From Sorghum bicolor (lineage: Eukaryota; Streptophyta; Magnoliopsida; Poales; Poaceae): DNA of 64,000 nt. Both the position numbers and the translations under genes were made by a program. The first letter of the stretch is position 1, and each line of letters opens with the position of its first letter. The notes beneath the pieces were generated by a model. That model made no database searches. It saw only the letters and a program-made list of their open reading frames with translations, and had not been told where the DNA came from. The stretch lies in contig NC_012876.2 in the NCBI RefSeq assembly GCF_000003195.3, forward strand, positions 59,762,407-59,826,406, written 5' to 3'. This document shows positions 11,897-64,000 of this stretch, in pieces.

Positions 11897-14800
11897 TTAA
11901 AGGAAACTATCTCTCCAAAGACTAATTAGTAAACTCTTGCTTCCTCTGGCTTTGGTGCAAACCAAGCCAAGTTCATCCTTAAACTGTCTCTTCCACTGTG
12001 CTATACATTTTTGTCCATTGTCAAAGATGACTTTGTTCCGGGTTTTCCAGATAATCCAGCAAGCTGTGATCATGATCTCCCTGAAAATGATGTTGTGGAA
12101 GTCCTCTTTGGCTTGGAGGATCATATCTAAAGGGTTGAGATTCAAATTCCAACTGATTGGAATGGTTGCCCAGCAATCCCTACTGAAAGGGCACTCAAAA
12201 AACAGATGGAAACAAGTCTCTTCAGTGCCAAGATTGCATAGTACACAGTTGAAGTCATCTAGATGCATATTTTTTCTTCTCAGGATGTTCCTGGTGTTAA
12301 GTCTGTCTCTTACTAATAGCCAGAAAAAGAATTTATGGGTGCCCAGGTTGCTTGATGCCCAGAGCCATTTGAAGATTGGTGGAGCAGGGCTATCTGCGCT
12401 GATGGATTTATATGCTTTTTTGCTGCTGTAACATTCTGAACCCCACCTGTAGATCCATTTATCTTTAGAATCTGACTCCCAGGATCTGTCTTGCATCGTG
12501 TTGATTAGTTCCACTAACTGAGCCTCTGCTATGGGTGAAACTGTTGTGTAGATGACTCTATTTATCGGCTGGTTTATAAAGAAGCTGATGGAGCAATTCG
12601 GTTTTCTGGTGAAGGAGAAGAGTTGTGGGTATTTGTCTTTCAGAGGTTCATCAATCCATATGTCTGTCCAGAGAGAGACCGTATTGCCTCTGTTGGGCTG
12701 GCAGATACTTATCTCTTTAAATTTCTCAAATAGTTTGATGATCTCTTTCCACCAAAAAGAGCCAACGGGGGATCTTTTGTGTGGTGGGGTTTGCTCATTC
12801 TGGTAGAACTTGTTCCAGGTTAGGTTGACCCATGGGATGTCATGGTTGTTGTAGAATTTATCCAGGTGCTTCATTAGAAGTGCTTCATTTTGACTTTTGA
12901 GATCGATAATGCCGAGTCCACCTTGAACTTTGGGCATGCAGGCAACTTCCCAGGCCACAAGAGATTTCCCTTTTCTGTCTACCTCTCCTTTGCTCCAAAG
13001 GCAATTCTTTCTGAAGGTATCGATTTGTTTGATCACTTCTGGTGGCAATTTTAAACAGCACATATAGAAGGTAGGGAGGGCCGAGAGCACTGAGTTGACA
13101 AGAATGAGTTTCCCATTATAGGACATGAATTTGCTGATGCCAGCCATTCTTCTTTCTATTCTGCAAATGAGGGGACTAAAGTCTTGAACTGTGGGCTTGG
13201 TTGTCCCTAAGGGTACCCCTAGGTAGGTGAAAGGCATACTGCCAACTTGGCATCCAAAGGTGTTGGCTAGATGAAGAGCTTTCTCACTGGTCATATTGAT
13301 AGGTACCAGGAATGACTTTGCAAAATTGACATACAGCCCTGTTGAGTCTGAGAAGCTTCTTAGTAGCCCTTTCAGGTTGAAAAGGGTTCTGGCGTCCCGT
13401 GGCAGGATGAGGAGGGTGTCATCCGCATATTGGATGATTGGAAAATCTTCCCCAAAGTTGTCACAAAGTGGATGTTTCAGTATGCCTCTCTGCCATGCCT
13501 TGTTTACTATACTTTGTAATAGGTCAGCAGCTAGGACAAAGAGAAGTGGAGAGAGTGGGTCTCCTTGTCTCACCCCTCTCTTACACTGAAAAGTCTTTCC
13601 TGGGATGCCATTAAGGAGTACCGAGGAGGTTCCTGTGCTTAAGATGTTTTTGATCCAGCCTAGCCACTTTTCTGGGAATCCCTTGTGTTTGAGAACTTCT
13701 AGGATAGTCTGATGCTCTATCTTGTCGAAAGCCTTCTCAAAGTCTAACTTCAGAATAATTGTCTCTTTTTTGGAGTGGTGACACAAGTGTAAGAACTGGA
13801 ATGACCAGGCAAGACAATCTTGGATAGTTCTACCTTTTATGAAGCCGTATTGGTTTGCATGAACCAGCCGAAGGATGACATCTTGGAGTCTTGTGGAAAG
13901 AATTTTTGTGATGGCTTTCAGAGAATAGTTCAGCAGAGAGATGGGTCTGTAATCGTTAACCCCTTCAGGGTTTTCCTTTTTTGGGATCAAAGCAATCACT
14001 GAGGAATTGATACTGCTCAAATCGATATTATCGTTGTAAAACTCATGAAACAACCTGAAGAAGTCTTCTTTGATTATACCCCAACAACTTTTAATGAAGA
14101 ACCCATTAAAGCCATCAGGGCCTGGAGCATGGCTGTTAGGCAGAGCTCTAATGGTCCTTTCAATTTCATCTATACTGAAGCTTTCATCCAATGAGGGCAG
14201 CTCATGACATGTCAGTAAGTCAGCTAGGTTATAGCTTATTCCTTGGAAGTTGCTAACTCCCATTCTTTCCTTGAAGGCATTCCAGAGGATGTTTGCTTTT
14301 TGTTCATGGTCATAGATTAGATTTTGATCAGAGTCAGACAGAGATACTATATAATTTCTTTTATGGGCAATGGTGGCCATAGTATGGAAGAAATGAGTGT
14401 TTTCATCCCCAAGCTTGACCCATCTGACTGTATTTCTCTGCTGCCAATATTTTCTTTTGGATTCTAATAGATCGTTCAGGTGACTTTTGACCAGTCTCTT
14501 GAAGGCCGATTCTAAACTGGAGAGGATCCTTTGTTCTTCTAGTCCATCTAAGAGTGCTAGAACCCAATTGCAATTGAAGATCAATTTGTTTAGGTTAGAG
14601 AGGTTTTTGCTCCAAGTTCTTAGACCGCTTCTAACCTGTTTGAATTTGCTGGACAGGTGTCTTGCTGCACTGGCGTAGAAAGGGGAGTTATTCCAATGAA
14701 GGGTCACTGTTTCTGCAAAATCAGGATGGTCCACCCAATAATTCTCGAATCTAAACATATTCGATTTAGGTATGGTTGTGCCGATGTGAAGGACATATAG

Positions 14801-15574
14801 AATGTGATCAGAGATTGGTTTGGATAAGGGTTGCACAAAGGTTGCTGGGAAAGAGAGAGGCCAGCTGGCGGAGGTGAAGACCCAGTCCAGTTTGACCAGC
14901 AGAGGGTCGGCTTGCATGTTGCTCCATGTGAAGTTTCTACCACTGAACGGGATTTCAGAGAGATCCAAGTCTGAAATGAGATTGTTGAACATGTTCATTT
15001 CAGTGGTGTCCCCTCCTGGTTTATTTCTATTTTTAGGGCTTCTGATCAAATTGAAATCACCACCTAGAACCCAGTCATCGAATCCATTGGTGTCCAGGTT
15101 TGTGAGCCAGGTGATAAACCCATGTTTCTGCATGGGATTGGAAGGCCCATAAGTATTCGTGAGATGAAAGGAGGTATTATCAATTCTGCATGAAAGCTTG
15201 ACAGTGAGGGCATAAGAGTTGCTCTGAACCAAGGCTCCCTCAAAGATGCTGCTGTTCCAGATGGTCAAGAGGCCTCCCGAGTTTCCAACAGAAGGGGAGA
15301 AGACAAATTTGTCTAGAGATCTAGGACAGAATTTTCTGATGTAGAAATTGTCAAAAAGTTCTCTTTTTGTTTCTTGAAGGCATAGGACTTGGCAGGCACT
15401 TTCATTGATTTTCGATCTTATGGCATCCCATTTTTCTTGGGAATTAATTCCTCTTATGTTCCAAAAGAGAATTTTACTCGATCTGTTAATGCTGGTTTGA
15501 TTCATGGGTGCAAACGAGGTAGAAGAAGGGCATGTTCGCACATCCAAGTGGCGAACAAGATATGCAGATACCAA
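11897..15574 (-). CDS. LINE ORF2: endonuclease, reverse transcriptase and zinc-binding domain
   Basis: One uninterrupted frame of 1225 codons. Residues about 35-280 form an apurinic-type endonuclease/exonuclease/phosphatase domain with WNIRG, LQETK, GGDFNL and a SDH near the end, the catalytic signature of L1 endonucleases. The reverse transcriptase follows (about 470-760) with [26 protein letters not shown] and the active-site YADD near residue 715. The C-terminal part (about 1080-1170) is the zf-RVT domain of plant LINEs ([16 protein letters not shown], then CVLC and [11 protein letters not shown]). There is no RNase H domain. The first 30 residues are uncertain because several ATGs are possible. 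It is intact in sequence, but the element's 5' end is damaged, so autonomous activity is doubtful. Confidence 0.93.
14243..14691. repeat. Left arm of a 449-bp inverted repeat (inside LINE ORF2)
   Basis: This ORF2 segment recurs in inverse orientation at 16551-16999 with no length difference. One substitution is evident (an A/G at about 14513 versus 16746). The arms are separated by 1859 bases. Confidence 0.9.
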
Positions 15575-15950
15575 GAGAGCTATTCACAGCTGGTTTTAGA
15601 AAATCATAGGTGGATTTGATCAGCATACAAGAGTAAAGCGAAAAGCACGCATGGATATAATATGCCAAAATATTACCAAGGTTCCAAAGGTTGCGGAAGC
15701 AACTATTACAGTACTTATTAAGCCAGTACAGACACTGGATATTAAAACAAGACAAAAGATGTAAGTTCTCAGTCACCCTAAACGGGCCAGGTGCTGAGTC
15801 AGGGCCAGAAGCTTTCTTAATAATCAAGATCACTGTTGTCAAAGAGTGCAGCAGAAACCGTCGCAGACGGGATCTGCAGGAATCCATGGCCAATTCCTTC
15901 AATAACATCCCTGGGGAGGTAGGGTGCCACTTCTGGAGCAGTGGGCGGAA

Positions 15951-23006: not shown

Positions 23007-25118
23007 CTAGGCGGTGGTCGGTGTGCCGGCGTCGCTCCTGCTCTCTGTGGGGCTGTACAGCGCCGACCGTGGGTGGAGGTTCTTGGGCCGGCTCTCCTCC
23101 AGCTGCCGCACCACCTCCGCCATGCTCGGCCTCGCCGCCGCCACCGGCGCGCAGCAGCCCATCGCCAGCTTCAGCGCCTGCACCAGCCCCTCCTCCGCGG
23201 GACTCACCCGCAGTCCCTTCACCACCTCCGCGTCCAGCACCTCCTCCAGCGCCGTCTCCTCCAGCACCGCCACCTTCACCACCGACGGCAGGTCCATCGC
23301 CGCCCTTGCGGCTCCACCACCTGCAGAGGACGACGACGACGATGACGGCTTCCTCCCCATGAGCAGCTCCAGTAGCAGGATCCCGAACGCGTACACGTCC
23401 GTGCGCGCGCTGCACTTCTTCATGGAGTGCAGCTCCGGCGCCTTGTACCCGTCCGCCTTGGCCGCCGCCAGCACCGCCTCCGCCGCCGCCGGCACCAGCA
23501 GCCGGTCCACCGCGTACTCCGCCAGGCGCGCCACGAAGAGGTCGTCCACCACCACGTTAGACGAGCGCACGTTCCCGTGCGCCTCGCCCTGCCCGGCGTG
23601 CAGGTACGCCAGCGCGCGCGCCGCGCCCAGCGCGATCTTGTGCCGCCGCGCCCAGGTGAGCGCCGGCCGCCCCGCCGCCGCGGGCTCTCCGCCGCCACCA
23701 GCGCCGCCGTGCAGGAGCTCCTGCAGCGTCCTGCTGCGGGGGAAGTAGTCGTACACCAGCAGCTTCTCGCCGCGCCTCCCCTGGTAGAAGGCCCTGAGCG
23801 GCACCAGGTTGTCGTGCCGCGCGCGGCCGATGCGGCGCACCACGGGCGCGCACGACGCGGCGTCCTTGCAGCTCCCCTCCCGCAGCAGCCGCAGCTCGAT
23901 GCTGCCGCCGCCGCTCGCCAGCTTCGCCTTGTACACCGTGCAGTAGCTGGCCTTGTCCACCACCTGCCCCGTCGCGTTGAGCACCTCCTCCAGCGTGAGG
24001 TGCTCGCCGCCCTCGAACACCACCAGCCTGCCCTCCGACGACGACGCGTCCTGGCCGTCGTCAACGGAGTCGAGCATCTCGTCCCGCTCCGCGTCGTCGC
24101 GCCTCCTGATCCTGCCGTCCCGCCTCCACCTCCCCTGCGCCCAGCCGATGGACACGGACGCAAGCACGACGGCGCCGGCCATGAGGCCGATGACCATCCC
24201 GGCGACGCCGCGGGAGCTGAGGCCGGACGCCGACACGCACTGGCGCAGCGGCGGGCCGCACAGCGACGGATCGTTGCCTTGGAAGGAGTCCGCCGTGAAG
24301 CGGGAGCCCGCGAAGGCCGGGGGCAGCTGGCCGGAGAAGTTGTTGTAGGACACGTTCAGCGCCTGGAGCTGCTGCTGCTGGGTCGTCGCCATCCCGGCGA
24401 GGGCCTCCGGGATGGGCCCCTCCAAGCGGTTGCCGCCCAGGTCGAGGCGCTGGAGTCCTCGGAACGCGGTGAGGAATGTCGGGAAGCCGCCGGAGAAACG
24501 GTTGGCGCCGAGGTCAAGGACGCGGAGGCGGTCGCAGGTGGTGTTGGGCCCGGCGGGCGCCGGGACGGCCCCAGTGAAAGCGTTGCCGTGGAGACGGAGC
24601 TCGGTGACGCGGTCGCAGAGGTTCCATATGGAGGGTGGCAGGGTCCCCGTGAGGCGGTTGCCGGCGAGGTCGAGCGCGGAGAGCGCGGGCGCGTTGCCGA
24701 GCTCGAGCGGGACGGGGCCGGACAGGGCGTTGGCGGCGAGGTAGACGGAGTCGAGCGCGGAGAAGGCGCCGAGGTCCGGTGGGAGGCGGCCGGCGAGCGC
24801 GGCGGCGGGGAGGCGGATGGAGACGAGGAGGAGGGCCGGGTCGGAGGCGAGCGACAGGTTGGCGCGCGTGGAGGAGGAAGAGGAGGAGGAGGCGTCGCAG
24901 CGGAGGGGCCGGCCGTCGGGCGTGGCCCAGCGGAGCCCCCGCCAGAGGCAGAGCGGCGTGGAGGCGTTCCAGGTGGCGAGCTCCGCGTTGGGCCGCTGCC
25001 CCTGCAGCGCCGGCTTGATCTTGGTGAGGAGCAGCGCCACGTCGGGGTTGGTGGAGGGCGAGGCCAGCGGCACCGCGGCGGCCAAGCAGAGGAGGAGGAA
25101 GGGTAGGCAAGGATGCAT
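23007..25118 (-). CDS. TMKL1: Leucine-rich-repeat receptor-like pseudokinase, TMKL1 type
   Basis: A single continuous frame of 703 residues. Signal peptide 1-20; an LRR N-terminal cap (DVALLLTKIKPAL, WNASTPLCLWRGLRW) at 26-64; about six LRRs at 97-275; a membrane helix at 304-326 followed by basic stop-transfer residues; a kinase-like domain about 378-660. Sequence features match Arabidopsis TMKL1: LRLLREG, RAFYQGRRGEKLL, GYKAPELHSMKKC, LKLAMGCCAPV and the C-terminal ALYSPTESRSDA. Catalytic residues are missing. The VAIK lysine is Arg410, the HRD motif is HGN at 514-516, and DFG is replaced by AEY at 533-535. It is expected to be a plasma-membrane receptor without phosphotransfer activity, acting by scaffolding. 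Ala/Ser homopolymers add length relative to the Arabidopsis protein. Confidence 0.92.
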   Translation of the reverse strand: MHPCLPFLLLCLAAAVPLASPSTNPDVALLLTKIKPALQGQRPNAELATWNASTPLCLWRGLRWATPDGRPLRCDASSSSSSSTRANLSLASDPALLLVSIRLPAAALAGRLPPDLGAFSALDSVYLAANALSGPVPLELGNAPALSALDLAGNRLTGTLPPSIWNLCDRVTELRLHGNAFTGAVPAPAGPNTTCDRLRVLDLGANRFSGGFPTFLTAFRGLQRLDLGGNRLEGPIPEALAGMATTQQQQLQALNVSYNNFSGQLPPAFAGSRFTADSFQGNDPSLCGPPLRQCVSASGLSSRGVAGMVIGLMAGAVVLASVSIGWAQGRWRRDGRIRRRDDAERDEMLDSVDDGQDASSSEGRLVVFEGGEHLTLEEVLNATGQVVDKASYCTVYKAKLASGGGSIELRLLREGSCKDAASCAPVVRRIGRARHDNLVPLRAFYQGRRGEKLLVYDYFPRSRTLQELLHGGAGGGGEPAAAGRPALTWARRHKIALGAARALAYLHAGQGEAHGNVRSSNVVVDDLFVARLAEYAVDRLLVPAAAEAVLAAAKADGYKAPELHSMKKCSARTDVYAFGILLLELLMGRKPSSSSSSSAGGGAARAAMDLPSVVKVAVLEETALEEVLDAEVVKGLRVSPAEEGLVQALKLAMGCCAPVAAARPSMAEVVRQLEESRPKNLHPRSALYSPTESRSDAGTPTTA

Positions 25119-25905
25119 CGAGGTCGGCCGGCCTGCCTGGGGGGCCTCGAGGAAGGTCTGGAAGGACTGTAGAGGCTAGCAGCTCGAGCTCGCGGAGTGA
25201 TGAGAGTGAGGAAGGAGTGAGCTCCTCCTAGTGCTCTCAAGCCTCAAGTGGAGTGGAGTGGAGTGGAGTGAAGTACAAGGAGAGTTTGATTTGAGGAAGA
25301 GCTCAGGCTCGCTCGTGCGATGCAATGAAATGCAATGAGAAATGGGTGGTTGGGTCCCTCTCGCTTTCCTTTTGTCTACTGTGGCCATGTCGCACCGCAG
25401 CAACAGCAACACGACACGAAAAGAAGAAGGGACGTACAGGAACAAAAGCAAGGCGGCAAGGAAGGCAGATGTGAAATGGAAACTGTGGGGTGCAGCCGTA
25501 CTTGCATTGCATATTTTGCATACAGTAGCATTTCCATAATTCCATCGCGCATTGCAAATTGTCAGCAATGAACTTTAGGCGCTAGGAGCTGGGGGAGTAC
25601 GTGTGCACGGTAGATTTGAAATCGAACGGAGAGTAGTACGTATCTGCCGTATACGGTACCACACGTACGTACGTATACGTACGTCCTGTAGTTAATTCGG
25701 CGCTCTGGAGGCAGCAGGACGCGCGCGTGAGTGGCAGCAGGCACAGTGACAGGCGAGTGTGCCTGTCTACTAGTGTGTGCGAGCAGCCAGCTCAGCTCAA
25801 GCTGCAGTTTGCAGAGGGACAGGGCCAATGGGCCATTTCTTTCTCATCCGTTTCTTGAGCGGCAAGTTCTAATTACACCCACCGTACTCCTCGACACACC
25901 ATTTG
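25119..25905 (-). promoter_or_regulatory. 5' flank of the TMKL1-like gene
   Basis: Region upstream of the minus-strand start. A short pentamer array (GGAGT repeated about four times, 25252-25270) lies in the presumed leader. Palindromic ACGT words (ACGTACGTACGTATACGTACG, 25664-25684) lie about 550 bases upstream; ACGT is the core of bZIP-binding sites, but function is not shown. TATA position was not fixed. Confidence 0.35.
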
Positions 25906-29672: not shown

Positions 29673-31086
29673 CTAATTATTTTGCCTATATGAATTCCCA
29701 AACTTTTGCCAAATACGATCAATCAAATCAGATTGAAGTTGTCTATATGCTTGGCGATCATGTAAGGCGGTATTTCTGTTAATTACATCTTCCATCTCTG
29801 GGTTTTCTCCATGAGTTATTATAGCTTCTTGAACAGTATATGTGCTGCCTTCCTCATTCAAATCAAGTGGAACCTGCTCTATATCTTTCTCATCTTCAAT
29901 TATCATGTTGTGGAGAATTATACAAGCAAGCATGATATCCTGAAGATCTCCTTGCTCGTAGAGACGTGCTGGTCGACGTAAAATACAAAAGCGAGACTGT
30001 AAAATGCCAAAGGCGCATTCAACATCCTTCCTTGCCCCTTCTTGCTTCTCAGCAAAAAGTTTATGTTCCTCAGATTGTGGCTGACGTATAGACTTAACAA
30101 AAACAGGCCACTCAGGATATATGCCGTCTGCTAGGTAATAACCAATATTATATTGTCTTCCGTTGATAGAATACTGCACCTGAGGAGCTTCTCCTCTCAG
30201 CTGCTCGACAAACAAATGTGATTGGTTAAGAACGTTGATATCATTGTTCGATCCAGCAACACCAAAGAAGGCGTGCCATATCCAACGATCGTGCGAAGCT
30301 ACTGCCTCTAGAATGACTGTAGGCACACCATGATCACCGCGGGTATACATACCCTTCCACGCATAAGGACATTTTTCCCAATGCCAATGCATACAGTCAA
30401 TGCTGCCTAGCATGCCAGGGAACCCACGACGCTCACCAATCTCCATTAAGCGTTCAAAATCTTGTACTGTTGGCCGCCTCAAATATTGCGCCCCAAATAT
30501 TTCTTTCACTCCCTTCACAAATAACTTCAAACACTCTACTGCGGTACTTTCACCAATCTTAATATACTCATCAAGCTGGTCTGCTGGGCTCCCATTTGCT
30601 AGCTGCCTTATAGCAGCAGTGCATTTTTTGGATTGGCGATAGGCCAGGACGATTAGTAGCATCAAATCTTATGCATTTTTGGATTGGCGATAGGCCAGGA
30701 CGATTAGTAGCATCAAATCTTAAGGTGAAAAATGGATTCCACTCACTGAGGGCATCGACAATGCGTAGAAACAGGGGCCTTCTCATTCTAAACCTTCTAC
30801 GAAAGATTGTAGAATTATAGATAGGGTTCTGCGTGAAATAGTCCTCCATAAGCCGCTGATTGGCTTCTTCTCGAGGCCTTGCAACATACCTCCTTGGACC
30901 ACTGATGTGTCTCCTCCCTTCTTCTAGTGCTTCAATATCATTCTTTAGTTCTGCAACCATTTCATCTTGCAGGTCTTCTAATACATCTTGCTCCGCTTCA
31001 AATTCCTCAAGTGTGTACAAATCTTCTGGGTCTATGCCGCCTTCCTCGTCATGAGGTTCAGTATCAGATGGTGGTTGCTGAGACAT
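29673..31086 (-). pseudogene. Harbinger transposase (DDE_Tnp_4 / plant transposon protein), frameshifted
   Basis: The N-terminal 150 codons read from 31086 (acidic start MSQQPPSDTEPHDEEGG, then YFTQNPIYNSTIFRRRFRMR and LFLRIVDAL). The C-terminal catalytic part reads in another frame to the stop at 29673. Catalytic-domain signatures are present: GMLGSIDCMHWHWEKCP with the first Asp, AVASHDRWIWHAFFGVAGSNNDINVL, GYYLADGIYPEW with the second Asp, RKDVECAFGILQSRF with the Glu, and IILHNMIIEDE. The frame is lost at a 51-bp direct duplication (30620-30671 and 30672-30722). The duplication alone is in frame, but one copy has six T instead of five on the plus strand, shifting the frame by one. Function: cut-and-paste transposition at TTA. 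Confidence 0.9.
30620..30722. repeat. 51/52-bp tandem duplication inside the transposase gene
   Basis: Copies at 30620-30671 (52 bases, six T after GCA) and 30672-30722 (51 bases, five T) are otherwise identical. The five-T form keeps the conserved reading SPIQKCTAAIRQL; the six-T form breaks it. Confidence 0.95.
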
Positions 31087-39963: not shown

Positions 39964-42900
39964 ATGGCGTCTCTGAGGCACCGCCGCGGTATCGGAGCCG
40001 CCAAGGGCTACGACGATTACATCCATGACGACGACGACGGCAGCGGGACTACAGCACCTGACACCGATGACACCGCCACGGATCCGGAGGAGGAGGAGGA
40101 CGCCGACGATGACGAGGAAGAGGAAGAAGAAGAAAGGGAGGAGGTGGAGGACGGCCGCCGCCGCCTGCACCTGGGACTCCACTCCATGACTGCAAAGGTT
40201 AGTCCTGTGCTATTGGTTGCTGACTGCTTGCATGCTACCACTCCGATCCTTGAATCGATTCAGAGCTAGCTCAGCTCGTTGACAGTTCAGACTTCAGAAT
40301 TCACCAAGGGTTTCTGATTGTATTGTATGTTTCCGTTACTGCTCCAGGGCATACAGCACCTGTGCTCTGAGCTCCTCGAAATCAAGAAGGCCTCGGAGGA
40401 AGACTTCAGCGCCAATGTTTATCTCAGCTACCTCTCCTTCATTAGGTAACATAAATACGTACGTAGGCTTCCATTCCATTAACCCTCCTTCGTTCCAAGA
40501 ACACCACGCCGGCATGATCTAGTACTAATTAATTCGTTGTCATATATATGTATCTTGATCGACGGCGGCCCAGGATGTTCCAAGAAGCTGGTGATCTGGA
40601 GAAGGACGTGCACCACCTGAAGCGTCAGGTCATGGCACACAGGCGGCTCGTCCAGCATCTCAGCATCAACTGCCTGTACTCACCGTCGTCAGCATCGATG
40701 GTACTACCTAGCTCCGGCGGTTCCAAGGAGGAGGAGGAGGAGGCCGCCGACATGGACGGAATCTTCCTCCCAGACCATCAAGGCGAACGCGACGAGGACC
40801 TGGAACTGGACGAGCTTCTGTCCGAGCACCGGATGGACGAGGCCATCCAGCTCCTGGAGCTCCGAGGCCAAGCGCTGCAGACGATGCAGCAGCAGGCCGA
40901 CGACGACGACGGAGCGATCGCGTTCGCGTCGAGCGTGCGCGCTCTGTCCGCCACGAAGGCGAGGGTCGCCGCCCGCTTGGCCTCCCTGGCGGAGAACCCG
41001 CGGACGCCGCGGCCCGAACTCCTCAAGGCGCTCTCGGGCCTCTGCAGGCTCGGCGACCCGGAGCAGGCGAACCACCTGCTCTTCCAGGTGCACCGCGCGA
41101 GCGTCGTCCGCGGCGTGGAGGAGCTGCGCGCGTCGCGAGGCCACCAACAGAGCATCGCCGGCGGCGGCGGTGGCGGCAACTACATCAAGGACCTGGCGCG
41201 CGTGGTCTTCGCCTCCATCGTGCGGACGTCGAGGAGCTTCGTGGCGCTGCACGGGCACCCGTCTCCCTACACACCTCGGCTGGTCCGGTGGGCGAGGGAG
41301 GAGATGGAGGACCTGAGCGCCGCCTTCTCCGAGTACGTGACGTCCATGTCGTCGCCGGCTACTGCCGCCCACAGCTTGGCTCTGGCGCTGGAGGCTGCCG
41401 AGTGCGCGGTCTCCTACTCCCCTCTGCTGCGGGCCGTCGACGTCGTCGCCTCCGAGCAAGACGTGGTTGCCCTCGTCGTGCCCTGCGTCCGAGACGCCGT
41501 CGCCATGTATGGCAGGCACCTCAAGGACGTGGTCCGGCTGCTGGTGGCTTCTGACGCCTGGGTGCTCGGCAGGTTCCTCATGCCATCAGGAGTCGTGCAG
41601 GGTGCTGCTGCTGGAGCACCGCAGCCTGAGTACTGCCTGCTCACAACCAACGGAAGGAAATTTGTCACCCTTATACAGGTATTTACATATTTATATATAT
41701 GTATATATATGTATGTATTGTTGTTCACAAACAATATGTATGTATAATTGATGATTTGGCATGGACAGGAGGTTGTGGAAGACGTAGCGTGGCCGTTGCA
41801 CAGACTTGGGATTGGGACGAACGATTCAGTCGGCCTGCAGCTTGTGGCAGAGCTGTTCAGGGAGTACATGCACTCCATCGTGGTGCTCGTCCCCAGAAAG
41901 GAAGCAGCAGCTGCTCTCCAACTTAAAGATTTCCTACAACTCCAAGACGAAGCGAATGGCGGCGGCGGCGGCGACGAGCGGTACACGTGGCAGCTCGCCG
42001 TGCTAATCAACTGCACGACGTTGGTGTCCCTGTTTCGGACCATGGCGTCCGGCGTCTTCAGGACAGCACCACCACCGCCATCGACGCCGTCGGGTTTTCC
42101 GGCGTCAGCACAGAGGGAAGTAGTGGACAGCCTCATCTCGCTGATCAAGGAAGCGGCCGGGCAGGTGTGGAGCTGCTTCTGCCAGCAGTTCATACGAGAC
42201 ACCATGTCGTCGTTAGCGCAGGTCCACCGCTTCGGAAGCGGAACGCCGCCGCCGCCGCAGGAGCAGGAGCAGGGCACGACGACGATGCCTTCCATGGCTT
42301 TCCAGGTGGTGTTCCTTCGGGTGAGGCGTCTGAACGAGGTGTACGGCGCCATCTTGAGCGGCGAGGACGGGACCATGAAGAAGCTCCTGCGGGAGCTGAT
42401 GGAGGCCATCATCTCCTGGCTCTCCAGCAACCTGGTCTCGTGGGCCGTCCATGGCGCCGCCCAGGTCCAGCTCGATGTTCATTTCCTGCTGGAATTCGCG
42501 GAGCTAGGTGGTTTCTCCTCCGAGAGCATCAGGAGCAGCGCGATGGACTTGCTTGCCAAAGCACAAGAGAAGGTGGCGGGTGGCGAACTGGATGATGTCA
42601 CCTGCGACGAGGGCGCCGGCGGCGGCCGGTGGGCTGCCGATGCTGCAAAACACGCCGTGCAGGTGCTGCTAGCAATGGGAGGTGGAGACGTAGCAGCGGC
42701 GGACGACGCTGGGGAGGAATCCGATGAGATGCCAAGGAGGAGCGGCAGTGACGAAGAAGCAGCACCCGAGGATGAGGATGAGACAGGGACTACCAACAAG
42801 TCCAGCGACGAGTTCATAAGCATGGAGGACGAGGACGACGAAGACGACGGCGCAGGAACGCCTCATCCTCCTGCTTTGTCGACAGGGAATCAGAAGCCCG

Positions 42901-54948: not shown

Positions 54949-55234
54949 CATACAAATTAAAGTAATGTAAAATGCTATTTTACCTGTCAACAAAAGCAGT
55001 AAGAACTGCAGGGTCTAGAGTGGGAAGTCCACTGTTGTAGACCCGGACGATCTCAAGAAAGCCTGCACGACGAATGTACGGCGCGTATCGCTCGTTCCAG
55101 CTGTGTACGTGGTGCGTGCGACCACGAAGCACACACAACGGCCTCTGCTGCTCCGACAAGGCCTTGGCCCGGTGGTCCTTGTCGTAGTCCGCCTCAATGA
55201 GGCTAAAGCGGGGATGAGGTGCTCGCGCCGCCAT
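54831..55234 (-). pseudogene. Captured N-terminal fragment of a plant mobile domain (PMD) protein
   Basis: Two exons on the minus strand, 55234-54984 and 54897-54831, with donor GTAAAA and acceptor GATGCAG joining in phase. Exon 1 ends YAPYIRRAGFLEIVRVYN and PTLDPAVLTAFVDR; exon 2 continues WRPETHTFHTPCGEMTITLQ then DV. This is the conserved start of the plant mobile domain (MAIN/MAIL type, retrotransposon- and MULE-associated). Homology stops after LQDV, where the family normally continues with a leucine-rich helix, so most of the domain is missing. It overlaps exon 3 of the GRF zinc-finger gene on the opposite strand. Confidence 0.75.
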
Positions 55235-55369
55235 CGTAGCCCGCCTGTTTCAAAAATGAAATAAACAACATTAGTACAATTATTAACATTAGTAATAAGA
55301 CAAAGCAAGTACATTTGAAGACAATTAACATAAATGCATGATTACTAAGAATTTTGATAAGCACAAAGA

Positions 55370-58090
55370 TTAATAAACAACCTCTTGTCTACCCCTCCTA
55401 TGAAATCTAGCGTTATGACCAGGTTTCTTGCAAATGCTGCATAGGTTCTGCGCACGTTCTTCGTTGAAGTCACCGCCACCATACATGTCATCGCCATAAC
55501 CTTTCATATTGTCCATATCGCCTTTCAGTCGCTTCTTCTTCCTCCTTCCCTTCCCTACCTTTCTTAGATCCGGATAAGGCACGTAGTCCTCACCATAATA
55601 TGGAGGCCACTGCGACTCGTCAAGGTACGGCTCGAAACTCTTCTCCCAAACATTTAGGGTGTTGGCACGGAGATACAAGGGTGACATGTATGGATCAGCT
55701 GTATGGTCAAAACCTCTAAGCCGACAAGACGTAATCATGTGTGAGCAAGGGGCATGCATGATCTGAGGTACGTTGCAACTGCATTCTACTTTTTCGAGAT
55801 CCACACGGTACGTTCGCCCACCAAATCGTTCACCGCCAAGGTTTGTGCCCCCTCTAGCTCGTACGCTAAAAACAAGTCTTTCTCGTCCATAGGGCTCACC
55901 AACCTGTTGCTTGGACAACTCCTCAGCCTCCTGCAAATATTCGTGTGCAGCCTTTCCCCATCTTCCAAGCTCCTCTTCATTCCTCAGGGCTAGGCCATAC
56001 CGCGTAACAAAATATTCATTGCACTTCTTAAAAGAGAACTCAACAATACCGGACACTGGTAGAGATCGAACGCCTTTGAACACACGATTGAAAGACTCAG
56101 AGGAGTTTGTTGTCATTATGCCATACCGAAACCCACCCTCATCATATGCTAATGCCCACTTCGCTTTATTTTCCATCTGCTGATCTAACCATTCCTTGCC
56201 CGCTCGGTTCATCATCTTCTGTAGTTCCGCCATTGTCTCCTTAAACTGGTGTTCCGTACGTTTATTACAAAGTTCCTTTAACTTGTCTGCCACCTCCTTC
56301 TTCCGTTGACGGCGCCAGAAATTAGCGGCAAAATGCCTCATGCACCAACGATGCACTAGGGGTGGGTGCCCATCAATGTGTTCACCGGCAGCATTAAGAA
56401 TTCCAATGTGACGGTCCGATATCAAACAAATGGTGCGAGAAGGACCAAGGACGTGAAGACGGAGCAGACGCATGAACCATGACCACGAATCATTGTTCTC
56501 CCCCTCTGCCAAAGCAAAAGCCAGTGGCACAATTTGATTCTCAGGGTCTACAGCAGCAGCCATCATCAATGTACCTCTGTATTTGCCGGTGAGGAATGTG
56601 CCGTCAACTAGAACAACTGGCCGGCAATACTGAAATGCACGCTTACACTGATCAAAATACCAGAACACACGGTACAGAATATGCCTCAACGGGTTCTGAA
56701 GATAAAACCCTCCTGTGTATATGAACCATCTCATGCCAGGGTTGAAGTGTTGCATTGCACACAAAATGCGTGGAACCCTGTTATAGGCTTCCTCCCAACT
56801 ACCCCACCGAATTGCCAGGGCAATTTGCTTTGCCCGCCATGCCTTTCCATATGTTACCTCATACCCAACAAAAGTGGCTATGGTCTCCTGCAAGAAAGAC
56901 ACCGATACGTCGTTGTCCGCATCTACAAGACCCAATATACGGCGAGCAAGGTACCGAGCCGTCAACTGGGGATGGTACCGTTTGCCCTTGTTCGTCTGGC
57001 ATCTGTGCGGCTGCTCCACTGAAGTTACCTTCCACTTCCCATCACTCGACCGTTTCCGTGCATTCAACTTCCACGTGCACGGGAAACCTGCCTTGCATAC
57101 TATTTGAAATTTTACCTCCTTGTCGGAATGCCGAACCGTGTACGGCCTATGATGATACACAGCATAGTCCTGAAGGAACAACTTCATCTCAGACATCGTA
57201 TTGAAAAGCATTCCCTTCCTGAGTATTAAATTTTCATGGTTGTACAATGATTCCTTACAAATCTGCAAACCCGTGTCACAAACCGCCATATGCGACATGC
57301 TGACATCCATATAATTAGGAACACCGGTAAAGGGCAAGCCAGCCTCCCTCAGCTGTCTAAGCTCAGCCGATGTATAAGAGGGTGGTGCAACGTAAGGTTC
57401 CGCCACTCGAACCCGACCCCATCCTTCGTATTCCTCTCCATCAACTGGATACCCTGTGGCTAAATTGCCGTGAGTGTGCGTTGCATGAAGTACCTCAAGC
57501 GGAACTCCTGAGGGCATGCCACGAACCGGTGCACACATGCCAGGTGAACCTACTTCCTCATTTTCTGATTCCTCAGAATCAGAGCAAACATCATCACCAA
57601 TCATTTCATCCTCTGCCGCCTCATTCTCCTCTTGTTCAAACTCGTCTACATCAAAATCATTTCTTATTTGACCAACTGGAGGAGATTGAACCCGCTCCTG
57701 CGTCCAATTACCATCCAAGTCCATACTCTCCATAGTTTGTTGGACCTGCACACCACAATCACCACCGTCGTCGAAGGACGGCTCCTCATTCTCAACAGTC
57801 TCCAACACCAACTCAGCCATGCCTACATTCGAACCTTGGATGACCCTATTGTATCGGGACCACTCAGCTTGGTTGCACAACTCCATCATCACATAGTGTG
57901 CCCTATTCTTTCCAACATCAAACCTACCCTTTAGTGTGAAAGAATCGCCAAACTTCAAACTCAAACGCTCACATAGATCACTAAAACTAGGGGGACCATC
58001 AAACCATTCCAAATCCTCAGACATATCCTCAAACTGACAATCCTCTCTCCTAACACTTCCTCCGTAAAAAACTCTTACACCGTAATCCAT
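55370..58090 (-). CDS. MuDR-type MULE transposase, intact
   Basis: Single-exon 906-residue transposase. Domains in order: a variable N-terminus with acidic clusters (150-185); a MuDR DNA-binding domain (LFNTMSEMKLFLQDYAVYHH, CTWKLNARK, about 295-375); the MULE DDE core near 485-600 (VVLVDGTFLTGKYRGTLMMA, LISDRHIGILNA, HRWCMRHFAANF); a SWIM zinc finger near 745-775 (CSCNVPQIMHAPCSHMI, of CxCx(n)CxH form); and a C-terminal CCHC knuckle CSICKKPGHNARFH. No internal stop or frameshift. It catalyses cut-and-paste movement with 9-bp target duplication, consistent with the flanking TGAGAGGCG. Transcription would begin in the GC-rich stretch at 58500-58870. Confidence 0.95.
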   Translation of the reverse strand: MDYGVRVFYGGSVRREDCQFEDMSEDLEWFDGPPSFSDLCERLSLKFGDSFTLKGRFDVGKNRAHYVMMELCNQAEWSRYNRVIQGSNVGMAELVLETVENEEPSFDDGGDCGVQVQQTMESMDLDGNWTQERVQSPPVGQIRNDFDVDEFEQEENEAAEDEMIGDDVCSDSEESENEEVGSPGMCAPVRGMPSGVPLEVLHATHTHGNLATGYPVDGEEYEGWGRVRVAEPYVAPPSYTSAELRQLREAGLPFTGVPNYMDVSMSHMAVCDTGLQICKESLYNHENLILRKGMLFNTMSEMKLFLQDYAVYHHRPYTVRHSDKEVKFQIVCKAGFPCTWKLNARKRSSDGKWKVTSVEQPHRCQTNKGKRYHPQLTARYLARRILGLVDADNDVSVSFLQETIATFVGYEVTYGKAWRAKQIALAIRWGSWEEAYNRVPRILCAMQHFNPGMRWFIYTGGFYLQNPLRHILYRVFWYFDQCKRAFQYCRPVVLVDGTFLTGKYRGTLMMAAAVDPENQIVPLAFALAEGENNDSWSWFMRLLRLHVLGPSRTICLISDRHIGILNAAGEHIDGHPPLVHRWCMRHFAANFWRRQRKKEVADKLKELCNKRTEHQFKETMAELQKMMNRAGKEWLDQQMENKAKWALAYDEGGFRYGIMTTNSSESFNRVFKGVRSLPVSGIVEFSFKKCNEYFVTRYGLALRNEEELGRWGKAAHEYLQEAEELSKQQVGEPYGRERLVFSVRARGGTNLGGERFGGRTYRVDLEKVECSCNVPQIMHAPCSHMITSCRLRGFDHTADPYMSPLYLRANTLNVWEKSFEPYLDESQWPPYYGEDYVPYPDLRKVGKGRRKKKRLKGDMDNMKGYGDDMYGGGDFNEERAQNLCSICKKPGHNARFHRRGRQEVVY

Positions 58091-58879
58091 CTACAAAACG
58101 ATTTAAGTACATTCCTCATCAACTAACCAATATGGTACTAATAAATACAAAATAACTAAGTACAGTACTACCGAATTTATTAACTATTTTACTAACTAAA
58201 TTACTATATAATAATAGTAACTAATAACTAATTATTAATTACTAATCACTAAATCTTAATATCTAATTACTAATTACTAGGTAACTTATATGTAAACACA
58301 CTAAACATTATTAAATAATAATAACTAATCACTAATCACTAAATAACGCTACTAATATTAAATAATAATATTAACTAAAAACTAATTACTATAAAACTAA
58401 TATCTAAACAAAGTTTAACTTTAACTAATAAAAATAACTAATACAAAATGTAAAATAATAATACTAAATATGTAATAATATGAGTTTAAATAAAAAAAAT
58501 ACCTTCACAACAAGGCGGCCGGATGGGGCAGGGCGCGGAGGCCGGGCAGCAGCGGCGTGCCGCGGCGCGGCAGCGGGGCGCGGAGGCCGTGCGCGGCAGC
58601 GGCGGCGCGCCGCGGGGGCGGGACGCGGCCGTGCGCCCAGAGCGACGCGGCCGCGGCGCGCGGCCGGGGGCTGGGGGCGTCCGCGTGAGGGCGTGCTCGG
58701 CGCGGGAGGACGTGCGCGGCAGGCGCGGGGGCGGGGTTGGGCGCGAGCGCGGCGGCGGCGCGGGCGCGGAGAGGGCGGGGCGGCGGCGCGGGCACGGCAG
58801 CGGGGCGGCGGGTGCGCGGGGTCAGCGTTACGGTGTGGGCAATGTGCGGGTCGGGCCCCGGTTTTCTTCTGACAGGGGG
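58091..58879 (-). promoter_or_regulatory. MULE transposase 5' region
   Basis: AT-rich stretch with runs of ACTAATTACTA/ATAATAATA (58120-58500), then a block at 58510-58860 of more than 80% GC. The GC block's open frames on both strands are Arg/Gly/Ala low complexity and not genes. Confidence 0.4.
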
Positions 58880-59156
58880 TAACCCGCCACGATGCGGGGC
58901 GGGGTGCGAACCCGCCATGATCCGCGGCGGGGAACCCCTACCCCGCCACCACCTACGGCGGGGTCCACGTCAGCCGGCCCCGCCCATCTGGGCGCCACGT
59001 GGCGCTTCAACCCCGCCGCCATGCATGGCGGGGTGTAGTGGTTTTGCCCCGCCATGCATGGTGGCGGGGCCAAACGGCCTAGTTTTGAAATTTTTTTCAA
59101 AAGCGGCCTAAAATTGAAATTTGATTTAAAAATGGGCTAAAAATAAAAAAAAATTC
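58880..59156 (-). repeat. Right MULE terminal inverted repeat
   Basis: Inverse of 53544-53815, including CCCCGCCATGCATGGTGGCG at 59047 and the box at about 59010-59032. The terminal ACGGCCTAGTTTTGAAATTT mirrors AAATTTCAAATCTAGGCCGT on the left. Confidence 0.9.
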
Positions 59157-59349
59157 TGAGAGGCGTGCTCACTGCTCACCACTAGATCCGCTTCCTGTCT
59201 GCCTGAAAAGGATGGAGAGTGTCCTCGCAAAAATAGAGAGAAGAAACAGAAACGGAAAAGGATAGATACTGTTCAGCTCCTCTGCCGCTGAAAATCGAGA
59301 TGCTTTTGTGTTTCAGAGACAAGTGGAGCTTGCCATTTCTTTCATGCTA

Positions 59350-59608
59350 CTCCCTCCGTTCTAAATTATAAGTCATTCAAGAATCTTGGAGAGTCAAAGT
59401 ATTTTCAAGTTTGACCAAAAATATATAGAAAAATATAAAGATTTATGTCATAAAATAGGCATACTATGAAAATATAACTAACAAAGAATCTAATGATACT
59501 TAGTTGATACCAAAAATATTATTGTTTTACTATATAAATTTGGTCAAACTTAAAAATCTTTGACTCTCCAAGATTCTTAAAATGACTTGTAATTTGATAC
59601 GGAGGGAG
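59350..59608. mobile_element. Stowaway MITE (260-bp family)
   Basis: Ends CTCCCTCCGTTCTAAATTAT and GTAATTTGATACGGAGGGAG, flanked by TA (59348-59349 and 59609-59610). Third copy of the family at 35826 and 36355. Confidence 0.88.
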
Positions 59609-60146
59609 TACTCACCGATAGTAGCAATCATTCATGCACTACCTTCATTTTTCTGGTCCCTATCTGTTGCTGCTATTGCAAATAAGCAGTAAATCTGCTA
59701 TATATGGTGTATATAAGAGGCTAACTAATACAGTATAAGTACAGTAGTACATATGATCTGGGTTCCTTTTCCTTGGGAAGTTGGGAGCTAGCCATCGTCT
59801 ACTTACAAGGAAGGATCAATTCCCATCTCTGGCACTGTATTTAGATAGATGCTGTTGCTTCTATCTGTTCCACATCTCAGTCCCAGCTAGCAGATGAGAA
59901 ACAAGAAGAATGAGAAGCAAAAAGAGTCAAAAAAAAAAAGATGTGAAAGTTTACATCATCCTAAAACCTCAACTCAAAGAGATCATCATCAAATTGTACA
60001 ATCATATGAACCACCGTGTTTTCTGCTTCTTTTTTTCTTTTCCCCTTGTTGCGATCATGGAGTACCATCATTCCCTCCGGAGCTTCAGCTTCCTCATCCA
60101 TCAATCTCTCAAGGAACCAAACTCATCCATGATCCATCCATCCATC
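59609..60146 (-). other. 3' flank of dw3
   Basis: Presumed 3' UTR and downstream region of the minus-strand ABCB1 gene. No other gene was recognised. Confidence 0.45.
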
Positions 60147-63100
60147 CTACGCGGCGGCCCCGTTGGACGACGACGGCGGCGGCCCGGGCGCGGCACCGCC
60201 TGTCAGCCGCTGCAGCTGCAGCATCCGCGCGTAGCACCCGTCGGGATGGTGCTTGAGCAGGTGCGAGTGCGACCCTTGCTCCACCACCTTGCCGTCGTCG
60301 ATCACGGCGATGGTGTGCGCGTTCCGCACCGTGGCCAGCCGGTGCGCCACCACGATGGTGGTGCGGCCGTTCCCGGCGCGCTCCAGCGCCTCCTGCACGC
60401 ACCGCTCCGACTCGGCGTCCAGCGCGCTGGTCGCCTCGTCCAGCAGCATGATGGCCGCCTGCTTCACCAGCGCGCGCGCGATCGCGATCCGCTGCCGCTG
60501 CCCGCCCGACAGCTGCACCCCGCGCTCGCCCACCTGCGTCCCGTAGCCCTCCGGCAGCGCCGAGATGAACCGGTGCGCGTTCGCCTGCGTCGCCGCCTCC
60601 ACCACCTCCGCCTCCGTCGCGCCCTCGCGCCCGTACGCGATGTTGTCGTGGATGCTCGCCGCGAACAGGAACGGCTCCTGCGGCACCACCGCCACCACGC
60701 GCCGCAGCGCCCGCAGGTTGTACTTGCGCACGTCCTTGCCGTCCAGGAGCACGCGCCCGGACGTGGGCTCGTAGAACCGCTGCACCAGCGCCAGCACCGA
60801 GCTCTTGCCGCACCCGCTCGGACCCACCAGCGCCAGCGTCTTCCCGGCGCGCGCCCGGAGGCTCAGGTCGCGGAACACCTGGATGTCCGGCCGCGACGGG
60901 TACGAGAAGTCCACGTGCTTCAGCTCCACCTCGCCCTTGGGCCGCTCCGGCACCGGCGCCGCGTCCACGTCGTCGGGCTCCACCTCCGTTTTCCGGTCGA
61001 TGGTCTCGAACACGGACCGCATCGCGCGCCCGCCCTTGACAAAGTCCGGCGCCAGCGTCAGCGTCTCGGCGGCGCCGTTGGCGGACACCATGAGCACCAT
61101 GAACACGCGGATGGTGCGCGAGAAGTCGGAGACGCCGTGCTTCACTAGCCACGCGGCGTACCAGAGCCCCAGCGCGTAGGACGCGTACAGCAGGAACTGC
61201 GCCACGCCGTAGCCGCTCCCGGCGATCTGCCCCTTCCAGAAGCAGCGCCGGAGCGGGCCGCGAAGGTTGGCCTCGAAGAGCCACCGCTCCGACTCGGCGT
61301 CCAGCGCGCTGGTCGCCTCGTCCAGCAGCATGATGGCCGCCTGCTTCACCAGCGCGCGCGCGATCGCGATCCGCTGCCGCTGCCCGCCCGACAGCTGCAC
61401 CCCGCGCTCGCCCACCTGCGTCCCGTAGCCCTCCGGCAGCGCCGAGATGAACCGGTGCGCGTTCGCCTGCGTCGCCGCCTCCACCACCTCCGCCTCCGTC
61501 GCGCCCTCGCGCCCGTACGCGATGTTGTCGTGGATGCTCGCCGCGAACAGGAACGGCTCCTGCGGCACCACCGCCACCACGCGCCGCAGCGCCCGCAGGT
61601 TGTACTTGCGCACGTCCTTGCCGTCCAGGAGCACGCGCCCGGACGTGGGCTCGTAGAACCGCTGCACCAGCGCCAGCACCGAGCTCTTGCCGCACCCGCT
61701 CGGACCCACCAGCGCCAGCGTCTTCCCGGCGCGCGCCCGGAGGCTCAGGTCGCGGAACACCTGGATGTCCGGCCGCGACGGGTACGAGAAGTCCACGTGC
61801 TTCAGCTCCACCTCGCCCTTGGGCCGCTCCGGCACCGGCGCCGCGTCCACGTCGTCGGGCTCCACCTCCGTTTTCCGGTCGATGGTCTCGAACACGGACC
61901 GCATCGCGCGCCCGCCCTTGACAAAGTCCGGCGCCAGCGTCAGCGTCTCGGCGGCGCCGTTGGCGGACACCATGAGCACCATGAACACGCGGATGGTGCG
62001 CGAGAAGTCGGAGACGCCGTGCTTCACTAGCCACGCGGCGTACCAGAGCCCCAGCGCGTAGGACGCGTACAGCAGGAACTGCGCCACGCCGTAGCCGCTC
62101 CCGGCGATCTGCCCCTTCCAGAAGCAGCGCCGGAGCGGGCCGCGAAGGTTGGCCTCGAAGAGCCCCGTGATCTTGCGCTCCGCGTTGAACGCCGCCACGG
62201 TGCGCAGGTTGGCGACGGCCTCGCCCGCGATCTGCGTGGCCCTGGCGTGCGCGGCCTCCAGGTCCCCCGAGAAGCCCTTCATGAACATCTTCTGCAGGAC
62301 GGTGGCGCCGACGACGAGCGGGAAGACGGCGAGGAGCACGAGCGCGAGGCGCCACTGGAGGACGAAGCCCGCGGTGCAGGCGACGAGCATGAGCGCCGAG
62401 TTCTGGACGATGACGGAGATACGGTCCCCGATGGCGGAGCGCACGTTCTGGGCGTCGAGCGCGAGCCTGGCGGCGACGCGCGCGCTGGCGTTCTCGTCGG
62501 CGTCGAACCAGGCGATCTCGTTGCGGAGCACGGCGGCGAACATCTTCTCGCGCACACGCTTCGTGAGGTTCTCGCCGACCGTGTCCCAGAACACGTGCTG
62601 CACCGTGTTGAACAGCAGCGCCGCGGAGGACATGCCGATGAGCAGGTAGCAGTACTTGGCGATCTCGCGCTTCATGTAGCGAGGGTCCGGCGCGTAGTAG
62701 ACGCTGAGCACGGCGCTGAGGATGTAGGCGAAGATGGCGCTGAAGGAGCCGCAGACCATGGAGCCCAGGGAGCCGACGAGCGCGTAGGCCCACTCGGGCG
62801 AGTTCATCCTGGCGAGGCGGAGGAAGGAGCTGGCGCCGGCGCGGAACGCGAGCTGCTTGTCGGCCATCGTCCGGTGGTGGTGGTGCGGGTCGTGGATGGA
62901 GAGGGTGAAGTCGGAGGTGGAGAAGTCGGAGAGGCGGCGGGAGTAGGGGGAGCGGCCGTAGGAGGAGTTGCGCGTCATGATGGGCGAGCTGACGGAGTTG
63001 CGGGCGCTGGAGGGCCTGGCGCTGCTGCGGCGGGCGTTGACGAGCGCCGCCTCGTGCGCCTGCTCCTGCATGCGGATCAGCTTGGCGTAGGTGCCGTTCT

Positions 63101-63389
63101 CGCCCTTGGCCATGAGCTCGTCGTGGGTGCCCATCTCGGAGACGGCGCCGCCCTGCAGCACGGCCACGACGTCGGCCTTGCGGATGGTGGACAGCCTGTG
63201 CGCGATCACCAGGGTGGTGCGCCCGATCATGAAGCGGTCCAGCGCCTCCTGCACGAGCTTCTCCGACTCGGAGTCGAGCGCGCTGGTAGCCTCGTCCAGC
63301 AGCAGGATGGCAGGGTTCTTGAGCATGGCGCGGGCGATGGCGATGCGCTGCTTCTGCCCGCCGGAGAGCTGCAGGCCGCGCTCCCCAAC
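60147..63389 (-). CDS. dw3: ABCB1/P-glycoprotein auxin efflux transporter, last exon, carrying the dw3 duplication
   Basis: The exon starts at 63389 after the acceptor GTGCAG and ends at the stop 60149-60147. It encodes the end of nucleotide-binding domain 1 (VGERGLQLSGGQKQRIAIAR signature, Walker B LLLDEATSALD), the linker, transmembrane domain 2 and NBD2 (Walker A GPSGCGKSS, signature SGGQRQRIAIAR, Walker B IMLLDEATSALD). The wild-type protein moves auxin basipetally across the stalk plasma membrane; its loss shortens internodes. Here an 882-bp direct duplication in frame inserts 294 residues: after the first ALDAESER the chain returns to LFEANLRGPLRRC, repeating the end of TMD2 and NBD2 up to the same point before completing. 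The preceding exons lie beyond the right edge. Family identity and allele are both well supported. Confidence 0.97.
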   Translation of the reverse strand, partial: VGERGLQLSGGQKQRIAIARAMLKNPAILLLDEATSALDSESEKLVQEALDRFMIGRTTLVIAHRLSTIRKADVVAVLQGGAVSEMGTHDELMAKGENGTYAKLIRMQEQAHEAALVNARRSSARPSSARNSVSSPIMTRNSSYGRSPYSRRLSDFSTSDFTLSIHDPHHHHRTMADKQLAFRAGASSFLRLARMNSPEWAYALVGSLGSMVCGSFSAIFAYILSAVLSVYYAPDPRYMKREIAKYCYLLIGMSSAALLFNTVQHVFWDTVGENLTKRVREKMFAAVLRNEIAWFDADENASARVAARLALDAQNVRSAIGDRISVIVQNSALMLVACTAGFVLQWRLALVLLAVFPLVVGATVLQKMFMKGFSGDLEAAHARATQIAGEAVANLRTVAAFNAERKITGLFEANLRGPLRRCFWKGQIAGSGYGVAQFLLYASYALGLWYAAWLVKHGVSDFSRTIRVFMVLMVSANGAAETLTLAPDFVKGGRAMRSVFETIDRKTEVEPDDVDAAPVPERPKGEVELKHVDFSYPSRPDIQVFRDLSLRARAGKTLALVGPSGCGKSSVLALVQRFYEPTSGRVLLDGKDVRKYNLRALRRVVAVVPQEPFLFAASIHDNIAYGREGATEAEVVEAATQANAHRFISALPEGYGTQVGERGVQLSGGQRQRIAIARALVKQAAIMLLDEATSALDAESERWLFEANLRGPLRRCFWKGQIAGSGYGVAQFLLYASYALGLWYAAWLVKHGVSDFSRTIRVFMVLMVSANGAAETLTLAPDFVKGGRAMRSVFETIDRKTEVEPDDVDAAPVPERPKGEVELKHVDFSYPSRPDIQVFRDLSLRARAGKTLALVGPSGCGKSSVLALVQRFYEPTSGRVLLDGKDVRKYNLRALRRVVAVVPQEPFLFAASIHDNIAYGREGATEAEVVEAATQANAHRFISALPEGYGTQVGERGVQLSGGQRQRIAIARALVKQAAIMLLDEATSALDAESERCVQEALERAGNGRTTIVVAHRLATVRNAHTIAVIDDGKVVEQGSHSHLLKHHPDGCYARMLQLQRLTGGAAPGPPPSSSNGAAA
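60400..62163 (-). repeat. 882-bp perfect tandem duplication (dw3 lesion)
   Basis: Copies at 60400-61281 and 61282-62163, offset exactly 882 (294 codons). Both copies read identically throughout, and the same open frames recur 882 bases apart on both strands. Junction on the plus strand at 61281/61282 within AAGAGCCACCGC, allowing one base of ambiguity. Established knowledge: this duplication in exon 5 defines sorghum dw3 and reverts to tall by unequal crossing-over between the copies. Confidence 0.97.
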
Positions 63390-64000
63390 CTGCACCGGCC
63401 ATGCACGCAGTGTCAAACAAACGGGTTGACTTTGACTGCCAAGTTTTTCATCAAATATAATAAAATAGTACCACTCCTCCAGCATAATTAATAACAACAA
63501 AAATGAAATCATTTGTTAATACTAGTCTTATGATGGTGCAGAGTGTTTGACCAGGGATGATGCATGGGCATGCGAGCATTGCTTAGCAAGGAATCAGTCA
63601 TGGGAGTGTGGGAAGGCGAGCTGGGCCTTGTTTAGTTCCAAAATATTTTGCAAAATCGACACTGTAGCTTTTTCGTTTGTATTTGACAAATATTATCCAA
63701 TCAAAGACTAACTAGGTTCAAAAGATTCGTCTCGTCAATTTCGACCAAACTGTGCAATTAGTTTTTATTTTTATCTATATTTAATACTTCATGCATGTGT
63801 CTAAAGATTCGATGTGATGGAGAATCTAAAAAATTTTGTAAAATTTTTTGGGAACTAAACAAGGCCCTGCTCTATGTGGCCCATATCCCATGTGACCTCT
63901 TAGATTTCATTAGATTTGATCTGGTTTGATTAAACCCTTCCCAGATGTTATTAACAAACCAGACTGCCTGCCACTGACAGTGATTAAAATAAGCAGCAGC
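63390..64000 (-). other. Partial intron of dw3 (upstream of exon 5) with a MITE
   Basis: Intron sequence up to the window edge. It holds the family-1 MITE at 63623-63867; exons 1-4 are outside the window. Confidence 0.8.
63623..63867. mobile_element. Family-1 MITE in a dw3 intron
   Basis: Ends GGGCCTTGTTTAGTTCC and GGAACTAAACAAGGCCC with full family interior. No clean target duplication is visible at the outer edge. Confidence 0.85.

Follow-up and report, generated by a model that had tools for sequence, protein, structure and literature searches.

Which allele of which gene is carried by a stretch of sorghum DNA in which the last exon of an ABC transporter gene contains the same 882 bases twice in succession, and how would the added copy affect the product? 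The window (the whole stretch analyzed: 64,000 nucleotides of Sorghum bicolor, RefSeq assembly GCF_000003195.3, contig NC_012876.2, forward-strand positions 59,762,407 to 59,826,406, numbered here from its first letter) almost certainly carries dw3-ref, the allele in which 882 bp of the last exon of the ABCB1 gene Dw3 are directly duplicated in tandem with the frame kept. An earlier note, made from the letters alone, had named this locus and allele, placed two exact copies 882 bases apart with the reading frame kept, and given the gene as an ABCB1 auxin transporter with the repeat in exon 5. Published statements are taken from passages of the papers cited by PMC number.

The repeat and the exon that carries it

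In a base-by-base comparison at an offset of 882, positions 60400-61281 and 61282-62163 were identical at 882 of 882 bases, versus 198 matching positions each at offsets of 881 and 883. This is the alignment that the earlier note had proposed, and the two exact copies at the claimed spacing are confirmed, with one refinement: the longest self-match at offset 882 is 883 bases (60400-61282 paired with 61282-62164), so the boundary of the 882-base unit is ambiguous by 1 base. A separate repeat search of 55000-64000 gave starts at 60400 and 61282 and a spacing of 882 (copies displayed as 300 nt); the pair is missing from the Tandem Repeats Finder listing because the maximum period there was 500. 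The remaining direct repeats with an exact 60-mer in the whole window were three runs of 95, 62 and 60 bases. The 31-base junction occurred once in the window and in none of 100 shuffles, and a chance origin of the 882-base match is excluded. GC content of the two copies was 72%.

The stop codon lies at 60147-60149 on the minus strand, and the minus-strand frame is uninterrupted from 63515 through both copies to that stop, so the frame is kept, as had been claimed. The exon start was placed at 63389 (acceptor 63389/63390, context TGCAG/GTTGGG). Because the 5′ half of the gene and its upstream exons lie beyond the window, the earlier designation stands as far as "last exon", and the number 5 is not countable here.

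Translation of the exon gave three Pfam ABC_tran stretches plus ABC_membrane, where the tail of nucleotide-binding domain 1 (NBD1) and one NBD2 were expected. The top solved relative was Arabidopsis ABCB1 (8zpx, 1841 bits), with ABCB19 (8woi) at 1340 bits, and the nearest proteins were grass ABCB1/PGP1, with maize PGP1 third, among the best 120 of 7993 homologues scored; each of these represents a 90%-identity cluster, and a duplicated member could therefore be hidden within one. Sorghum is not named among these 120. Judged by its ABCB-type transmembrane domain 2 (TMD2) and NBD and its closeness to ABCB1, the gene is assigned to the plant ABCB1 (P-glycoprotein) auxin transporters, in agreement with the earlier note. 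Instead of contributing to two NBDs in all, as in plant ABCB1 proteins, the exon holds the tail of NBD1 followed by NBD2 twice, once incompletely; the extra NBD2 is the mutation itself and casts no doubt on the gene family.

The duplication adds 294 residues in frame (the unit encodes LFEANL ... DAESER), comprising the final two membrane segments of TMD2 and NBD2 through the D-loop. Hydropathy analysis gave two membrane-type peaks per unit, at residues 436-457 and 470-488 and again at 730-751 and 764-782 of the translated frame, which we take, from general knowledge of P-glycoproteins, to be TM11 and TM12. Walker A, VPQEP (the Q-loop), LSGGQ and LLDEATSALD were all present in each copy by motif scan; AHRL marks the H-loop. 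In reading order, NBD2 copy 1 stops after the D-loop, without an equivalent of the last 84 residues, and copy 2 is complete. The Trp codon at the junction is split between the copies (TG + G), the normal flanking codons being Cys and Gly. Motifs and hydropathy thus bear out the claim of a second copy of the end of TMD2 and most of NBD2.

In 118 of the 120 homologues LSGGQ and Walker A each matched twice (one of the others has two and one, and one has one and two), and three matches to either motif, hence a duplication, in 0 of these best 120 of 7993. Against the exon frame, Miscanthus P0002 aligned with a single 294-residue gap and 774/788 identical residues elsewhere, Panicum P0001 and rice P0034 with one 294-residue gap at the same place plus small gaps, and maize P0003 with the 294 residues split into 68 and 226; the gap was set at the first copy in the three of these four pairwise-aligned relatives other than maize. 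The flanks ESERCVQEALER and AERKITGLFEANL occur once each, uninterrupted, in P0001, P0002 and P0003. Maize P0003 is brachytic2 (ZmABCB1/PGP1), the comparison suggested in the earlier note: it is identical to one copy of the sorghum exon at 735/788 residues, but LSGGQ and Walker A each match twice in it and there is no duplication. Maize alleles mentioned include Mu insertions and a milder one (PMC6686935). By these alignments, the duplication is best read as a gain in this gene and not a loss in its relatives.

Identification as dw3-ref

Primers Dw3-F and Dw3-R (PMC10815169) matched exactly at 62396-62415 (minus strand) and 60271-60290 (plus strand), for a product of 2145 bp, or 1263 bp minus one unit. 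These are the two sizes printed in that paper, the longer form having 882 bp more; the paper gives the longer product to Dw3, contrary to other papers. The primers of a dw3 reversion assay (PMC8828589) also matched exactly, for a product of 1960 bp, or 1078 bp with one unit, and the legend there gives a major band of >1,500 bp for dw3/dw3 Tx430. Two control primers, one for Dw1 and one for Dw2 (PMC10815169), had no match anywhere in the window.

Further support comes from dw3-sd1, which like dw3-sd2 is a stable dwarf allele of the same gene and exon; the two are printed as a 2-bp and a 6-bp deletion, respectively, and dw3-sd1 as p.(Leu1435GlyfsTer120), in a protein of 1541 aa (PMC10547693). 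All simulated 2-base deletions that changed Leu to Gly and gave a stop 119-121 codons on fell at Leu 976 of the exon frame. In these the stop is at 120, and the distance from Leu 976 to the end is 106 residues, the same as 1541-1435, so both dw3-sd1 numbers fit and the printed site maps into the window sequence. An 11-base GC-alternating run is present in both copies (60470-60480 and 61352-61362). The 11 equivalent 2-base deletions that fit dw3-sd1 are all inside 60470-60480, and slippage is therefore a plausible origin of dw3-sd1. Since the window frame is open and LSGGQRQR is present in both copies, neither the dw3-sd1 nor the dw3-sd2 deletion is carried here.

The window sequence thus resembles sorghum dw3-ref (Dw3/SbABCB1, Sobic.007G163800) in the 882-bp direct tandem duplication, its position in the last exon, and the fit of primers and amplicon sizes; its minus-strand orientation also agrees with the one given for the gene on chromosome 7 (PMC10547693). 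No difference was found in the part of the gene within the window. Some printed figures weigh against this identification. Counted from the same end, the dw3-sd2 site Gln1174-Arg1175 (PMC10547693) falls on Leu. The printed 1541-aa model is ~140 aa shorter than the exon plus the preceding part of P0002, and the published gene model may therefore be incomplete. The duplication is given as 881 bp in PMC6686935, a length that would break the frame; the sequence here has 882. The first two misfits are matters of how the published model is numbered. The published primers and the dw3-sd1 fit support the identification as dw3-ref apart from the earlier note, whose naming of locus and allele holds; the allele-level fit also points to the species named there, sorghum. 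The dw3 duplication was already known, and knowledge of the locus is unchanged.

Effect of the added unit

In dw3 plants, P-glycoprotein function is lost, auxin transport is reduced and internodes are short (PMC4133927, PMC3583462, PMC10547693). No discussion of the frame of dw3-ref was found in the open-access passages covered. The NBD2 copy made first, lacking both an H-loop and the final 84 residues, would sit behind TMD2/TM12; an additional pair of membrane segments and a complete NBD2 would be left over, and the product would be misassembled or unable to hydrolyze ATP. The truncation of the upstream copy is therefore a suggested reason for the failure of an in-frame protein, and we give about an even chance to the incomplete first NBD2 copy being the cause. 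It is also possible, although with a likelihood short of even, that the same allele acts otherwise, the longer RNA or protein failing to accumulate, so that loss of the H-loop from the first copy would not be the cause; decay of the RNA would find no trigger in a premature stop within the exon, where the frame is open.

Splicing could in principle remove the added unit. New introns are described as arising through tandem duplication of exon sequence that bears AGGT (PMC4974935). AGGT is present in each copy, and splicing from a GT to the AG of the next copy would therefore remove exactly 882 bases and give a single-copy mRNA. On the coding strand, AGGT occurs 5 times per unit, versus 2.16 expected under a first-order model (at least 5 in 6.6% of 2000 simulations). 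On a rough matrix, the best AGGT donor scored 3.23 versus 8.16 for the consensus, and 4-9 of the 17 bases ahead of each AG are pyrimidines, the sole acceptor for comparison being one authentic site. Exact splicing-out of one unit was rejected on these poor donor contexts and poor pyrimidine tracts, and efficient splicing of the unit is predicted to be unlikely. Trace splicing of one unit could make dw3-ref slightly leaky; we consider it very improbable. The dw3 duplication is like intron gain by AGGT duplication (the Rogers model; vertebrate ATP2A1) in that exon sequence with AGGT is repeated in tandem, but its donor contexts are weak and its pyrimidine tracts poor. The one open-access paper found on "intron gain" at sorghum dw3 concerns intron loss in ABCB1, and in the passages of it that were covered the duplication is not treated as an intron.

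Origin, reversion and surroundings

The earlier note held that the perfect identity of the copies fits a recent origin or homogenization; both are allowed, but a recent origin is not shown by identity. At assumed substitution rates of 1.3e-8 to 6.5e-9, zero differences between the copies gave 95% age bounds of ~131,000 to 261,000 years. Dating by copy identity was rejected as uninformative: the bounds are too weak, and identity hardly dates the repeat because zero differences fit ages to about 10^5 years. An old duplication held identical by gene conversion, instead of a young one, would be compatible with zero differences up to about 130,000-261,000 years at these rates, and copy-to-copy exchange would homogenize it; the repeat is, however, in none of the best 120 of 7993 scored relatives, and an unselected repeat should vanish fast at the printed reversion rates (below). 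We consider this reading extremely improbable. Breakpoint microhomology was also rejected as a sign of origin: the breakpoints have 1 base in common, as do at least that many in 49% of random exon position pairs. The 60-base breakpoint surroundings agree at 17/60 positions versus a random mean of 17.2, and their longest common substring is 7 bases, a figure without a computed background. An assembly artefact, with an overlap left unmerged in a single-copy gene, is a highly improbable source of the repeat: perfect identity and 72% GC would be expected of such an overlap, but length and position match an allele detected in plants by polymerase chain reaction (2145 versus 1263 bp; >1,500 bp versus a smaller revertant product), and the sequences flanking the unit are arranged as in single-copy relatives.

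Tall revertants are attributed to recombination between the repeats or to crossing over described as uneven or unequal (PMC12060247, PMC10547693, PMC6686935, PMC12449061), which upholds the earlier explanation of the instability; exchange at any point of the 882 identical bases would leave one complete copy. One paper (PMC12060247) has reversion at 0.1-0.3% in its abstract and at 1-3% in the legend to a figure. Elsewhere it is given as 0.1-0.5% (PMC10547693, PMC8828589), as ~1/600 (PMC12449061), as a printed count of 10/5708, and as 10/6,650 Tx430 field plants (PMC8828589). No report of a dw3 triplication in sorghum was found in the open-access library searched. Coordinates of the repeat, its motifs and the amplicons are collected in Table 1.

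Table 1. Positions in the window of the exon, the two units, motifs and in-silico amplicons
Feature	Position	Strand	Basis
Last exon of ABCB1/Dw3 (exon 5 in the published five-exon model)	60147..63389	-	Open frame, Pfam domains, acceptor context
NBD1 signature through Walker B/D-loop, near exon start	63273..63368	-	Motif scan
Unit copy 1 in reading order: last two TM segments of TMD2 and NBD2 through D-loop	61282..62163	-	Self-comparison, motifs, hydropathy
Walker A (GPSGCGKS), NBD2 copy 1	61683..61706	-	Motif scan
ABC signature (LSGGQ), NBD2 copy 1	61380..61394	-	Motif scan
Walker B/D-loop (LLDEATSALD), NBD2 copy 1; junction reached without H-loop	61299..61328	-	Motif scan
Codon spanning the junction, TG+G (Trp; residue 705 in the translated frame), DAESER joined to LFEANL	61281..61283	-	Boundary ambiguous by 1 base
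Unit copy 2 in reading order, identical; continues into H-loop and C-terminus	60400..61281	-	Self-comparison, motifs
Walker A, NBD2 copy 2	60801..60824	-	Motif scan
ABC signature, NBD2 copy 2	60498..60512	-	Motif scan
Walker B/D-loop, NBD2 copy 2	60417..60446	-	Motif scan
H-loop (AHRL) of NBD2, present once and not part of the unit	60336..60347	-	Motif scan
In-silico amplicon, primers Dw3-F/Dw3-R, 2145 bp	60271..62415		Primers from PMC10815169
In-silico amplicon, dw3 reversion-assay primers, 1960 bp	60342..62301		Primers from PMC8828589

Some 2 kb past the stop codon of dw3, at 55370-58090 (minus strand), lies an uninterrupted 906-aa frame for a Mutator-like transposase, in which MULE, Transposase_mut and DBD_Tnp_Mut all exceeded the Pfam cut-offs. 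An element like a miniature inverted-repeat transposable element (MITE) at 59350-59612, with inverted ends CTCCCTCCGT, is downstream of the gene and presumably Stowaway-like; another MITE-like element, at 63627-63867 with inverted ends CCTTGTTTAGTTCC, is in the intron preceding the last exon. A long open frame at 11897-15583 (minus strand) has reverse transcriptase, zf-RVT and endonuclease domains and is presumably a long interspersed nuclear element, and a frame at 29673-30668 (minus strand) with Plant_tran and DDE_Tnp_4 is one that we take to be a Harbinger-type transposase. Probable neighboring genes are represented by open frames at 23007-25175 (minus strand; LRR and kinase domains), 40533-41747 (plus strand; Exo84_C) and 4797-6422 (plus strand; DUF1618).

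The dw3 allele has a central place in the breeding of grain sorghum, where the need to rogue its revertants makes seed more costly (PMC12060247). The present analysis adds a check of the junction at the level of single bases, an inventory of the ABC motifs in each copy, and an identification based on published primers and the dw3-sd1 site. If trace splicing of one unit did occur, dw3-ref could serve as a natural test, in a crop gene, of whether tandem duplication leads to intron gain.
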